Notes under the pieces: generated by a model
The model's database searches: none
What the model was told of the DNA's origin: nothing
The model's input: the letters and a program-made list of their open reading frames with translations, nothing else
Position numbers and translations under genes: made by a program
Assembly: GCA_035635555.1 (NCBI GenBank)
Contig: DASQAT010000046.1
Span: 62,001 to 126,000 of the forward strand
Source of the DNA: Candidatus Dormiibacterota bacterium
Lineage (GTDB): Bacteria; Acidobacteriota; Polarisedimenticolia; Gp22-AA2
Length of the DNA: 64,000 bases
Reading direction: 5' to 3'
In this document: positions 57,526 through 64,000 of the stretch, piece after piece
How the letters are laid out: the number at the start of each line of letters is the position of its first letter
Numbering within the stretch: the first letter of the stretch is position 1

Positions 57526-58587
57526 CTATTTCAGGAACTCGAGGCCGGGCCGGCCGTCGGCCGGAACGACCTCGCCGATCACCGCGGCGATCGCGTTGCC
57601 ACGCTCGCGCAGTCGCGCGACGAGCGCAGGCGCCTGGTCGGCCGGCAGAGTGATGAGCAGGCCGCCCGACGTCTGCGGGTCGACGATCAGCCACTTCTCG
57701 TCGTCGCTGAACGTGCCGGAGAAGGTCATGGCGTCCTGGGCCACCTGCATGTTGGAGCCGGTGACGGATGTCGCGATACCCTGTCCGATCAGGTCCAGAC
57801 TCTCCTCGTACTTCGGGATGTCCGGGAAGCGGAGCCGCATCCTGACCTTGCTCGCCTTGGCCATGCCCAGGGCGTGGCCGCTCAGACCGAAGCCGGTGAT
57901 GTCGGTGCAGGCGTGCGAGTCGAACTCGAGCATGGTCTCGCAAGCCGTCCGGTTCAAGGCCGCCATCCAGTTCACGGCGCGCATCAGGAGCTCCTCGGAC
58001 ACCGCCCCCCGCCTGTACCCCGTGATGATGACGCCGGTGCCGATCGGCTTCGTCAGGACGAGATGGTCCCCGGGCCGCGCGGCCGCGTTGGTCAGGATCC
58101 TTCTGGGATCGATGAGCCCGGTGACCGACAGGCCGTACTTCAGCTCATCGTCACGCACCGTGTGCCCGCCGACCAGCGTCGCACCGGCCTCCTTGATCTT
58201 GCTGAAGCCGCCCTCGAGGATCCTGCGCAGGGAGGCCTTGTCGATGTTCTTAGCCGGGAAATTGCAGCAGTTCATGGCGGTCAGCGGGCGGCCACCCATG
58301 GCATAGACGTCGGAGATCGAGTTGGCCGCCGCGACCTGGCCGAAGAGAAACGGATCGTCCACGACCGGCGTGATGTAATCGACGGTCTGGACCAGCGCCA
58401 GGTCGTCGGTGAGGCGGTACACACCGGCGTCGTCGCCGGTCTCGAAGCCGACGAGCAGGTTGGGGTCGGTCTTGGCCGCCCCGGCGAATTCCCTGACGAT
58501 TTCGCTCAAGTCCACCGGACTGAGCTTGGCCGCTCAGCCCCCGGAACGGGCGTGGCTCGTCAACTTGGCCGCGGTCTGCTCGGTCAT
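57526..58587 (-). CDS. selD: Selenide, water dikinase; a selenocysteine-containing SelD
   Basis: This enzyme makes selenophosphate from selenide and ATP. Translation from ATG 58587 (AGGAGG four bases upstream) gives MTEQTAAKLTSHARSGG, then an in-frame TGA at 58534-58536, then AAKLSPVDLSEIVREF and the rest of SelD. SelD proteins have Cys or selenocysteine at exactly this place (GCGCK in E. coli, GGUAAK in selenoprotein forms), so TGA encodes Sec18. Other motifs are GDDAGVY, ANSISDVYAMGG, GGHTVRDDELKYG, DITGFGLSGHALGMAK and DPQTSGGLL. The full length is 353 residues. A conventional gene call would begin after the TGA and lose the active site. Confidence 0.93.
58504..58525 (-). promoter_or_regulatory. 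SECIS-like hairpin downstream of the selD UGA
   Basis: On the minus strand, eight bases after the TGA, two stacked stems form: GCTCA with TGAGC and GTCC with GGAC, closing a GGT apical loop and leaving one unpaired T. Bacterial SECIS elements lie right after the UGA and present a short G-containing apical loop near a bulged U for SelB. Distance and shape fit; the bulge lies on the 3' side, unlike E. coli fdhF. Confidence 0.75.
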
Positions 58588-58683
58588 CCTGCCTCCTCGA
58601 AGCGTGACGCGCAACGTGAAATGCTAGCGTCGCGCCGACGCTCTTGTCAATTGCGCCAGGGGACACGCTCTTCGACGGTGCAC

Positions 58684-59645: not shown

Positions 59646-61229
59646 GTGCCGCCCCGCTCCCTCGTCGTCCAGGTGGTGGCCTGCGACACCACCGAGGCGA
59701 TGCGCAGCGCCTACCTGTCGCCCGATCCGCGGGCGGATATCGTTGAGCTTCGTCTCGACCTCGTCCGAGATCTGGATGCGGATCGTCTGCTCCGTCTCCC
59801 GGGAAAACCGAAGCTCATCACCGTGCGCAGCCGGCAGCAGGGTGGGCGCGCCCGGCCCGCCGATCGCGAGCCGCTCCTGCGCAGGGCCCTGACGGCCGGT
59901 GTGGACTACGTCGACCTGGAGTACGGCGGCCAGGACCTGCACCTGCTGACAGGACCGGGGCGCTCCCGGCGCATCCTCTCGTACCACGACCTCCAGGGGA
60001 CGCCCGCCGACCTGCAGGGGCTCCATCGGGAGATGCGAGCGGCCGGAAGGGACGCGCTTCTCAAGATCGTGACGCTCGCCGATGCCGCCTCGGACGTCCT
60101 GCGCGTGCGCGACCTCCTGAGGACCGCGGAGCCCGGGCAGCTGGTGTCCTTCTGCATGGGGCCTAAGGGAGTGCCGAGCCGGATCCTGGCGCGCCTGTGG
60201 GGGTCGGCGGCCGTGTACGCGCCGCGCCGGGGCGCGCCCGGCAGCTCTTCAGGACAGGTGGCGCTCGAGGATCTGTTCGATGTGTACCGCTTCGATCGCA
60301 TCGGCCCCACGACCCGACTGCTGGGTGTCCTCGGGTCGCCGATCGCCCACTCCCTGTCGCCGTGGGTCCACAATACCGCCCTGACGGCGCTCGGTCTCGA
60401 TTACCGTTACCTGCCGTTCGAGGCGGGGACGCTCGCGGAATTCCTGCCTCTTCTGAGCGAGCTGCGCCTGGCCGGCTTCAGCGTCACGCTGCCCCACAAG
60501 GAGACGATTCTGCCGCACCTCGACGCGCTGGACGAGACCGCGCGGCGCGTCGGGGCGGTCAACACGGTCGTGAAGGTGTGGAACCGCCTCGAGGGGCACA
60601 ACACCGACGTGGAGGCGGCTCTTCTTCCGCTGCGCCGGCGGATGACGCTGCGCGGAGCCCGCGTCGCGCTCATGGGCGCCGGGGGCGCGGCGCGCGCCCT
60701 GGTCTATGGTCTTTCCGCCGAGGGAGGCCGGGTCACGCTGTTCAACCGCTCGGCCGGTCGCGGCCGCGATCTGGCGCGGGCCTTCGGGGTTCGGCATCTT
60801 CCCTGGGATCGACTGCGGCGATTCCCGTGCGATGTCCTGATCAACGCCACCTCCGTCGGACTTGCACCGGACGCTGAGCAGTCCCCCCTGCCGGCCTCCT
60901 GGATCGCCGCCCCCTGGGTCTACGACATCGTCTACAACCCTCCCCGGACCAGGCTTCTCCGCGAGGCGCTGGCGCGCGGGCACCACATCGTCGACGGAGT
61001 CGAGATGTTCGTGGCGCAGGCGGCCGCGCAGTTCCTCCTGTTCACGGGCACAGAGGCCCCCATCAAGCTGATGCAGGAGACGGCTCTCAGGATCCTCGGA
61101 CACGAGGCGCCCATCACCGGGCCCGCCCGCCCCCGACCCCGCGCGGCCGCGCCGGCGCGTCCTGCGAAGACTCGCCCGGCGCGGGCGCGCCCGGTGCGCC
61201 GGCGCTCCCGGCGGGCGCGACATCGCTGA
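59646..61229 (+). CDS. aroDE: Bifunctional type I dehydroquinase-shikimate dehydrogenase
   Basis: A 527-residue fusion. The AroD half (residues 5-215) has VELRLDLVRD, the catalytic His in SYHDLQGTP and the Schiff-base Lys in LLKIVTLAD. The AroE half (about 220-490) has GSPIAHSLSPWVHN, SVTLPHKE, GAVNTVV, GAGGAARALVYG and NATSVGL. It performs the third and fourth steps of the shikimate pathway. The last 45 residues are an Arg/Pro/Ala-rich basic tail with no counterpart in the family. The trp leader and trpE lie just downstream, so aromatic synthesis genes are grouped. Confidence 0.93.
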   Translation: MPPRSLVVQVVACDTTEAMRSAYLSPDPRADIVELRLDLVRDLDADRLLRLPGKPKLITVRSRQQGGRARPADREPLLRRALTAGVDYVDLEYGGQDLHLLTGPGRSRRILSYHDLQGTPADLQGLHREMRAAGRDALLKIVTLADAASDVLRVRDLLRTAEPGQLVSFCMGPKGVPSRILARLWGSAAVYAPRRGAPGSSSGQVALEDLFDVYRFDRIGPTTRLLGVLGSPIAHSLSPWVHNTALTALGLDYRYLPFEAGTLAEFLPLLSELRLAGFSVTLPHKETILPHLDALDETARRVGAVNTVVKVWNRLEGHNTDVEAALLPLRRRMTLRGARVALMGAGGAARALVYGLSAEGGRVTLFNRSAGRGRDLARAFGVRHLPWDRLRRFPCDVLINATSVGLAPDAEQSPLPASWIAAPWVYDIVYNPPRTRLLREALARGHHIVDGVEMFVAQAAAQFLLFTGTEAPIKLMQETALRILGHEAPITGPARPRPRAAAPARPAKTRPARARPVRRRSRRARHR

Positions 61230-61288: not shown

Positions 61289-61317
61289 TTGACAGCCCGG
61301 AGGGTGTGCAGTAGAGT
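61289..61317 (+). promoter_or_regulatory. Strong sigma70-type promoter of the trp leader operon
   Basis: A perfect TTGACA at 61289-61294, 17 bases, then TAGAGT at 61312-61317. The predicted start near 61324 places the leader peptide frame 20-55 bases into the transcript. Confidence 0.75.
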
Positions 61318-61344
61318 AACGGCGCTTCTTTCGGGAGAACCGCC

Positions 61345-61464
61345 GTGTACGCCAGGCCCGCCGGCGAGGACGACTTTGTGGACCTCACGATCCGCGAGGC
61401 GGCACGGCCCCGTCGCTCCGCCCTGTTCCACATCACAAACTACTTTTATTATTGGTGGCGCTGA
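61345..61464 (+). CDS. trpL: Aromatic amino acid leader peptide (trp attenuator leader)
   Basis: A 39-codon frame, GTG start, with GGGAGA seven bases upstream; GTG 61378 (28 codons, AGGA upstream) is an alternative start. It ends ITNYFYYWWR-stop: three Tyr, one Phe and two adjacent Trp in the last eight residues. The codons TAC TTT TAT TAT TGG TGG form an AT-rich island in very GC-rich DNA. Ribosome stalling at the Trp/Tyr codons would sense charged tRNA levels and control the lipoprotein-trpE-trpG operon that follows, as in known trp leaders. It sits between a strong promoter and alternative RNA hairpins. Confidence 0.78.
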   Translation: MYARPAGEDDFVDLTIREAARPRRSALFHITNYFYYWWR

Positions 61465-61474
61465 CCGAGGCGCC

Positions 61475-61536
61475 GGCGGGACGCGTCCGACCCGCCGCTC
61501 CCGGGATGCGCAGGCACCCGGGGGAGAGTGCGTCCC
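61475..61536 (+). promoter_or_regulatory. Alternative RNA hairpins after the leader peptide
   Basis: Three competing pairings follow the leader stop: GGCGGG (61475-61480) with CCCGCC (61491-61496); CTCCCGGG (61498-61505) with CCCGGGGGAG (61517-61526); and GGGACGC (61478-61484) with GCGTCCC (61530-61536). The first and third exclude each other, the layout expected of an attenuator. No U-run follows, so control may be Rho-dependent or act on translation. Confidence 0.5.
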
Positions 61537-61601: not shown

Positions 61602-62267
61602 ATGCATGAGACACGAGCGTCCCGTCGAGTGCCGATCACGTTCGCCCTGATCGGAGCCTGTCTTCTCTCCGGATGCGCGTCCGTCGAACGCAATCCCAAT
61701 GTGGTGTCACCGTACAGCGACAAGCTGAGCCCGTTCAACTACAAGGAAGAGGGAACGGTCGCCCGCATGGTGGTCGGGGTCGAGGCCGCCCGGTTCATCC
61801 GCAACGAACATTACTTCCCGCTGTTCGTGCAGGTCATCAACCGGTCGAAGAAGACGTTCGAGATCACGCGCGAATCGTTCACGCTCGAGGATCCTCTGGG
61901 GAACCAGTACTCGATCGTGCCGGCCCGGGAGCTGTCGGAGAACTACCCGCGTCTCGAGCTGGACCGGCGGCTGTTTCGTCAGAACCGCCAGTTCACGTCC
62001 ATCGGCGCCGGGCTCTACACCTATGTCGAGAGCGGGTTCTACCCGGTGTCCGGGCCGCGCTCCCTGCTCATCGACAAGGTATCGCTCCCGCCGCAGGCCT
62101 ACATGGAGGATGTGCTCTACTTCCCGGTCCCGCAATCGGGTCTCAACGGCGTGCCCCTGCGCCTGCTCTTCAAGGTGAGCGGGCTCGACGACCCGATCCA
62201 GGTCGTCTTCGAAGTGCCGCGCACGCTCGGGATCTTCGAGAAGGACAAGGGCAGGGGGGACCGTTGA
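61602..62267 (+). CDS. Lipoprotein of unknown function in the trp operon
   Basis: A 221-residue protein. The ATG at 61602 has GAGG upstream. The signal peptide ends in the lipobox LLSGC near residue 25, so it is lipid-modified. The mature part, with VEAARFIRNEHYFPLFVQVINRSKKTFEITRESFTLED and a C-terminal VPLRLLFKVSGLDDPIQVVFEVP, looks like a compact beta sandwich. I do not recognise a family. Its stop overlaps the trpE start by four bases (TTGA), so expression is coupled to tryptophan synthesis, an unexpected partner. Confidence 0.8.
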   Translation: MHETRASRRVPITFALIGACLLSGCASVERNPNVVSPYSDKLSPFNYKEEGTVARMVVGVEAARFIRNEHYFPLFVQVINRSKKTFEITRESFTLEDPLGNQYSIVPARELSENYPRLELDRRLFRQNRQFTSIGAGLYTYVESGFYPVSGPRSLLIDKVSLPPQAYMEDVLYFPVPQSGLNGVPLRLLFKVSGLDDPIQVVFEVPRTLGIFEKDKGRGDR

Positions 62268-63729
62268 CGAACGGCTTCAGCGTCGATGCGGCGGATCTCC
62301 CCGGACTGGCGCGCCAGGGCAATATCATCCCGGTGTGTCGCGAGATGGAGGCGGACCTGCTCACGCCGGTCGCCGCCTTCCTCCGCATCGCGCGGGGAGC
62401 GCGCCAGCCGTTCCTCCTCGAGTCGGTGGAAGGGGGCGAGGCGATCGCCCGCTACTCGTTCCTCGGACGCGATCCCACGGCGCTCGTGCGCTCCACGGTC
62501 GACGGCGAACTGTCGGGCGGCGATCCGCTGCGGGCGCTGCGACGGGCGATGTCCGGGAACCGGCCGGTGCGCCTGGGGGATCTGCCGCGCTTCACGGGCG
62601 GGGCGGTCGGTTACCTGTCATACGACGTCGTGCGGCTCCTCGAGCGGCTGCCGCGCTCGATCGAGGACGACGTGCGCCTCCCGGACATGATGTTCGGGAT
62701 CTACGACACGGTCCTGGCGTTCGATCACCTGAAGCAGCGGATCCAGATCGTCTCGAACATCCGGACGGAGGAGGGGGGCCGTCCTCTGGGGGCCGGCGCC
62801 CTGCGCGAGCGCCACGGTGCGGCCTGCCGGCGCATCGAGGCGATGGAGAGGCTGCTGCTCCGCCCCGCGCCGGCACCGGCGCCTCGGCGGCACCGGCGGG
62901 GTCGCTGGAAGGCGAACATCAGCGAGGCGCTCTACAAGGAGAATGTCAGGCACGCCAAGGACTACATCCGGGCGGGCGACATCTTCCAGGTGGTCCTGTC
63001 GCAGCGCTTCGAGCGGCGGGCCGCGGCCGCGCCGTTCTCCATCTACCGCGCCCTGCGGCGCATCAATCCGTCGCCGTACATGTACTACGTCGACTTCGGC
63101 GAGGTGGCCCTGGCGGGCGCCTCGCCGGAGATGCTGGTCCGGGTCGAGGGGGACAGGATCAGGACCCGGCCGATCGCCGGCACGCGGCCGCGCGGGCGGG
63201 ACGAGGAGGAGGACCTGGCCCTCGAGGATGAGCTGCGGACCGACCCCAAGGAGAGGGCGGAGCACGTCATGCTCGTGGACCTCGGCCGGAACGACCTGGG
63301 GCGCGTCAGCCGGCCCGGCACGGTCGAGGTCAGCCGCTTCATGGGCGTGGAGCGTTTCTCGCACGTCATGCATCTGGTCTCCGAGGTCACCGGACGGCTG
63401 CGGGCCGACCGGGACGCGTTCGACGGCCTGCTGGCCTGCTTCCCGGCGGGCACGGTCTCCGGCGCCCCGAAAGTGCGCGCCATGGAGATCATCGAAGAGC
63501 TCGAGACCAGCCGGCGCGGCCCGTATGCCGGTGCCATCGGCTACGTCGATTATTCGGGAAACCTCGATTCCTGCATCACCATAAGGACGACCGTCCTGGC
63601 GCGGGGGGTGGCGCACGTGCAGGCGGGGGCCGGGATCGTGGCCGATTCGGTGCCGCAGCAGGAGTACCGCGAGTGCGTCAGCAAGGCCGGGGCGCTCATC
63701 GACGCCATCGAGCGCGCGGAGGCCCGGGC

Positions 63730-63733
<4 letters not shown>
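62264..63733 (+). CDS. trpE: Anthranilate synthase component I
   Basis: A 489-residue enzyme starting at TTG with AGGGGGG upstream. The N-terminal [20 protein letters not shown] contains the LLES motif that binds feedback tryptophan. The chorismate-binding part has [71 protein letters not shown] and [17 protein letters not shown]. It converts chorismate to anthranilate with ammonia from TrpG. It overlaps trpG by four bases and lies under the NYFYYWWR leader. Confidence 0.95.

Positions 63734-64000
<267 letters not shown>

Follow-up and report, generated by a model that had tools for sequence, protein, structure and literature searches.

The trpL leader of E. coli and other enterobacteria is a well-described form of Trp attenuator, in which a short translated leader lies behind the promoter, tandem UGG codons and an Arg codon stand near its end, a structured RNA begins in the control codons and the trp operon follows downstream. 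The E. coli version includes a U-run terminator, and its Arg codon is separated from the stop codon by two further sense codons. Within the 64,000-nt stretch of DNA analyzed here (hereafter the window), which belongs to a genome assembly of 4.28 Mb, one small ORF shares with trpL the promoter, the short and presumably translated leader, the tandem Trp and Arg codons and the downstream trp operon, with a structured RNA predicted to begin in the control codons, whereas its stop codon follows directly after Trp-Trp-Arg (WWR) and a U-run is lacking.

The Trp attenuators known from Corynebacterium and Streptomyces (PMC1262725) resemble this leader in belonging to GC-rich bacteria and in placing double or triple UGG codons before a trp operon. 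The same source describes the leaders of Mycobacterium cys operons, where the control codons lie near the leader stop and no obvious terminator is present (PMC1262725). With its WWR-stop ending and the lack of a U-run, the leader in the window has this cys-type layout. The two are set side by side by layout and not by sequence, the control codons being Cys there and Trp here, and no kinship is claimed. Mycobacterial ORFs are called leaderless in the title of Canestrari et al. 2020 (cited in PMC9094748), whereas the ORF in the window has a Shine-Dalgarno (SD) sequence. The attenuator is of a known kind, and its layout is a variant. In the literature searched, with most subscription journals outside the search, no paper on Trp attenuation in Acidobacteria was found, and the leaders reported here likely document it in a class of Acidobacteriota for which that literature held no description.

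Leader ORF and operon

The 39-codon ORF at 61345-61464 reads MYARPAGEDDFVDLTIREAARPRRSALFHITNYFYYWWR from a GTG start codon to the stop. The sigma-70 type promoter upstream matches 10 of 12 consensus bases (TTGACA-17-TAGAGT), and one such site is present in the region, where shuffled sequence gives 0.1 on average. Its -10 element ends 27 nt before the leader start codon, so the untranslated leader would measure about 20 nt. A sequence-only reading of this DNA had proposed a leader ORF with a ribosome binding site and a strong promoter; the ORF is real, and both its coordinates and its reading were right. That reading also placed trpE-trpG downstream. Both genes are present in the operon, but the gene directly behind the leader encodes a lipoprotein, and trpE comes next. 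The features are collected in Table 1.

Table 1. Coordinates of the leader, its RNA elements and the flanking genes in the window
Feature	Position	Strand	Remarks
aroD-aroE fusion	59646..61229	+	type I dehydroquinase + shikimate dehydrogenase; upstream of leader
Sigma-70 type promoter TTGACA-17-TAGAGT	61289..61317	+	aligned in 6/6 family genomes
Shine-Dalgarno GGGAGA of leader ORF	61333..61338	+	GGAGA equivalently placed before GTG/TTG in 6/6
Leader peptide ORF, 39 aa	61345..61464	+	GTG start; ends NYFYYWWR-stop; homologues in family
A/U-rich Tyr/Phe codons TAC TTT TAT TAT	61441..61452	+	adjoin the Trp codons on the 5' side; one Tyr codon conserved
Tandem Trp (control) codons TGG TGG	61453..61458	+	identical in 6/6 family genomes
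Conserved nucleotide block TGGTGGCGCTGAMCG-N5-CCGGCG	61453..61478	+	half beyond the stop codon; all 6 family genomes
Predicted hairpin	61458..61511	+	starts in second Trp codon; stop codon in internal loop; no U-run after
Arg codon at leader end	61459-61461	+	
Leader stop codon TGA	61462-61464	+	
Lipoprotein gene	61602..62267	+	first in operon; no Pfam family; alternative start ATG 61587
trpE	62264..63733	+	TTG start overlapping lipoprotein stop; Pfam Anth_synt_I_N and Chorismate_bind
trpG	63730..64000	+	runs off window end; Pfam GATase

After trpG, which runs off the window, the operon continues on the same contig with trpD, trpC, trpF, trpB, trpA, a chorismate mutase-like ORF, DAHP synthase and a tyrA-like ORF; the trp and DAHP synthase genes were assigned by Pfam, and the chorismate mutase-like and tyrA-like ORFs were read from the sequence. 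Trp accounts for 15 of 3422 codons (0.44%) in the operon proteins counted. The lipoprotein gene precedes trpE in the family of the window (f1), in its sister family (f2) and, judging by inspection, elsewhere in the class. Among named records, relatives of the lipoprotein come from MAGs listed as Acidobacteria, including one 'gp22', and a contig scan with the lipoprotein as query returned no new members. Two minor observations concern this neighbourhood: lipoprotein-like proteins occur at the same place before trpE in other class families, and in f2 (L042, L043 and L049) the aroD-aroE fusion is separated from the lipoprotein gene by an extra ORF of ThiF/HesA-type appearance.

Conservation of the leader in the family

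Homologous leaders were found by sequence in three further species of the genus and in another member of the family (G011), and by position before the operon in a further one (G010), so the leader is kept in every family genome, six in all, where the region is assembled. It is missing from two other assemblies (G005 and G009) because their contigs end inside the operon, about 1 kb upstream of trpC and short of trpE. In G010 and G011 another gene, an M20 peptidase by Pfam in the former and a similar sequence in the latter, separates the leader from the lipoprotein gene, and the leader is retained. The sequence-only reading had named loss of the frame or of the aromatic codon run in close relatives as grounds for giving it up; neither the frame nor the Trp codons were lost wherever the region is assembled.

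Across the six genomes, the start codon, the SD sequence and the promoter align, with TTGACA followed by a -10 element of TAGAGT, TAAAGT or TACAGT, and the indels within the leader are all multiples of three. The Trp-Trp-Arg-stop sequence TGGTGGCGCTGA (TGG TGG CGC TGA) is identical to the base in 6/6; the G010 peptide is just 26% identical to that of the window, yet its TGGTGGCGCTGA is unchanged. Conservation extends 3' of the stop codon into non-coding sequence, where MCG-N5-CCGGCG keeps a fixed spacing in every one of the six. Retention of the frame, promoter, SD sequence and WWR-stop in six genomes, with in-frame indels only, is more than chance, as is the Trp pair given the rarity of Trp in the operon proteins counted.

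A search for the whole block across 396 genomes of the phylum returned the six and one unrelated place, the latter (G253) being a chance match inside a long frame that resembles an RND efflux pump. Other candidates were rejected as well: a weak match in the class (G018) is a shifted frame inside a gene, and the WW-ending frames that other relatives show within the lipoprotein gene and the genes upstream are shadow frames.

Canonical-looking Trp leaders elsewhere in the class

Ten genomes from six other families (f3, f7-f11) carry canonical-looking Trp attenuators directly before trpE (loci L051, L052, L053, L054, L060, L063, L064, L066, L067 and L073). Their Trp runs comprise two to four adjacent Trp codons, and the leaders close with endings such as AAAGWWWTAFIEVAPARD, AASWWWWTPSRTEAGPAVR and SRYYWWWCHSRMARGGV, each followed by the stop codon; CCCACCTCC...GGGGGTGGG-TTTTTT is an example of the U-run terminators before trpE. 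In the nine genomes that passed the scan, the stop codon stands 12-16 codons after the first tandem pair, and a further 46-68 nt lie between it and the start of the U-run; the U-run hairpin of the tenth (G027) was read by eye. The leader in the window shares with these a run of Trp codons upstream of trpE, and differs in that its WW lies three codons from the end, no U-run follows and a lipoprotein gene comes first.

Two genomes of the sister family f2 have a U-run terminator (CCTCTTC..GAAGAGG, followed by a T-run) upstream of the lipoprotein gene; one (L049) may carry a leader in which two Trp codons stand apart, and the other (L043) shows no evident leader ORF. The class holds a natural series, from canonical U-run attenuators in six families, through U-runs with other leaders in f2, to the lack of a U-run in f1, and this family series lets the loss or replacement of the terminator be followed.

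RNA structure and the search for a terminator

Single-sequence folds of all six family genomes gave a similar hairpin architecture, in which an outer helix from the second Trp/Arg codon, weak in G010 and G011, is followed by an internal loop holding the stop codon, a middle helix of short length and, at the apex, a GC-rich helix. In the five relatives that were aligned, 88.6% of cells were paired versus 39-56% with the partner slid, and no pair had changed on both sides. The hairpin is accordingly a prediction supported by conservation and not by covariation. RNAalifold returned five pairs with changes on both sides from a six-sequence alignment (A4), which were not taken as covariation evidence because G010 is misaligned there. 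Folding z-scores of single sequences against shuffles varied by relative, from -3.5 to +1.0; the whole-leader fold of the window was not more stable than shuffles (z -0.05), and pairing of the CCGGCG arm alone was weakly above them (p 0.03).

The classical three-segment model (pairings 1:2, 2:3 and 3:4) was tried and rejected: its arms can be drawn in most relatives, 3:4 is inconsistent, and against shuffles 1:2 was not above (p 0.16) and 2:3 weakly above (p 0.03). The 3' strand of the middle helix could pair downstream instead in the window, G010 and G011, and no competing or further downstream structure was common to all six family genomes. As a separate observation, GAGGACGACTTTGTGGACCTC inside the leader (61365-61385), which does not differ by a single base among the four genus members, could fold into a small hairpin of GAGG with CCTC.

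The six f1 leaders lack a U-run terminator, the longest T-run in the 120 nt after the stop being 1-3, a point on which the sequence-only reading is silent. A 60-kb survey of the genome of the window gave few U-run terminators beyond the chance number, so the absence of a U-run here may partly reflect the habit of the genome. With respect to Rho, the C/G ratios after the leader were 0.83-1.02; they displayed no C-rich bias and gave no positive sign of Rho. The Rfam 15 covariance models gave no match to the leader up to E = 10, nor at gathering thresholds, and the canonical relatives of the class gave chance-level matches only.

Proposed mechanism and its output

The ORF is probably the leader peptide of a ribosome-dependent Trp attenuator that controls the operon from the lipoprotein gene through trpEGDCFBA, chorismate mutase and DAHP synthase to tyrA. 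It is a short ORF with an SD sequence, a start codon and tandem Trp codons behind the promoter of a trp operon, and the Trp codons are conserved with identical bases in 6/6; the U-run intrinsic terminator before the first structural gene, which marks the classical form, is absent from all six leaders. The earlier proposal of an attenuator leader for a trp operon is supported by this conservation, by the content of the operon and by the canonical trpE leaders in six other families.

Transcription would start about 20 nt before the leader start codon. With charged tRNA-Trp scarce, the ribosome would wait on the two Trp codons, and from either of them its footprint would cover the 5' strand of the hairpin that begins there; the hairpin could not close, and the operon would be expressed. 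With Trp plentiful, the ribosome would reach the stop codon and leave, following which the hairpin would close and expression would be lowered. Stalling, the direction of its effect and the output step are what we infer from this arrangement. For the output, we favour termination that needs no U-run, at the GC-rich hairpin or beyond it, or termination by Rho, over translation control of the lipoprotein gene. More tentatively, the locus may represent a Trp switch that works with one hairpin and no intrinsic terminator and has Rho-dependent termination or translation as its output; such a switch would have arisen from, or beside, the canonical U-run attenuators within the class, with Tyr perhaps as a second signal.

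Translation control would use the same Trp sensor in another way, the RNA of an unstalled leader folding to close the start site of the lipoprotein gene and stalling opening it. The lack of a U-run in the leader is in keeping with this, and in the window and in G006 the lipoprotein start is preceded by TGAGGTC, the complement of GACCTCA within the conserved block GAGGACGACTTTGTGGACCTCA. However, this complementarity spans 7 nt, a length that chance often gives, and it is not kept in G008, G010 and G011. In G010 and G011, moreover, the M20 peptidase gene and not the lipoprotein gene comes first, and in such a long operon it is not obvious that closing a single start site would affect trpE, all of which makes closure of the lipoprotein start unlikely as the explanation.

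The signal and the role of the peptide

Judged from the codons, the conserved signal of the leader attenuator is Trp. The runs before Arg-stop in the six family genomes are YFYYWW, HSYYWW, HYFWW, HYHWW, TSYYWW and DSYCWW, the residues preceding WWR being NYFYY, NHSYY, NHYF, NHYH, DTSYY and YDSYC; Trp-Trp and one Tyr codon are present in 6/6 and Phe codons in 2/6. The sequence-only reading took the mixture as a sensor of all three aromatic amino acids, and a leader that sensed Trp and Tyr (and Phe) would open the operon by a stall at any codon of YFYYWW. A Tyr codon does stand two codons before the Trp pair in every one of the six, the leader codons TTT (3/97 Phe) and TAT (9/74 Tyr) are rare in the operon proteins counted, and the genes for DAHP synthase, chorismate mutase and TyrA belong to the operon, which through them also makes DAHP and Tyr/Phe precursors. 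Against this, the positions of Phe in two genomes hold His, Ser or Cys elsewhere, the Trp runs in most of the canonical leaders found in the class are not flanked by Tyr or Phe, and the A/U-rich stretch may simply keep the path of the ribosome free of structure. Conserved Tyr, Phe and Trp codons do not occur together in the control run of the six genomes, and the claim for all three aromatics was not upheld. A leader that senses several aromatic amino acids is improbable, and a part of Tyr in sensing is possible.

A further alternative is action of the leader peptide in trans after its release, of the kind reported for peTrpL of Sinorhizobium meliloti. A Trp leader peptide that acts in trans has been described (PMC7298713), and GEDDFVDL, part of the N-terminal half, is conserved within the genus. 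However, this block lacks synonymous changes in the genus, which suggests that the RNA and not the peptide may be kept, and the N-terminal half is not retained in G010; action in trans is very improbable. The N-terminal-half stretch GGCGAGGACGACTTTGTGGACCTC is base-identical in the four genus members, and this identity to the base points to the RNA as the conserved element. Among the five closest leaders, changes at codon positions 1, 2 and 3 number 22, 22 and 17; the positions change about equally, and the peptide itself would therefore be under little constraint. Although a conserved stable protein would not be expected to give such counts, the reading as a chance frame, or as a small protein that stands on its own and takes no part in regulation, is the least credible of all, since a chance frame would not keep the start codon, SD sequence, in-frame indels and WWR-stop in six genomes and a free protein would not need the conserved bases after the stop codon.

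A neighbouring selenoprotein candidate

Elsewhere in the window, the frame of selD (57526-58590, minus strand) runs on upstream through a TGA codon as ...ARSGG-U-AAKLSPVDLSEIV..., so its listed GTG start at 58515 is probably not real and the protein is probably a selenoprotein.
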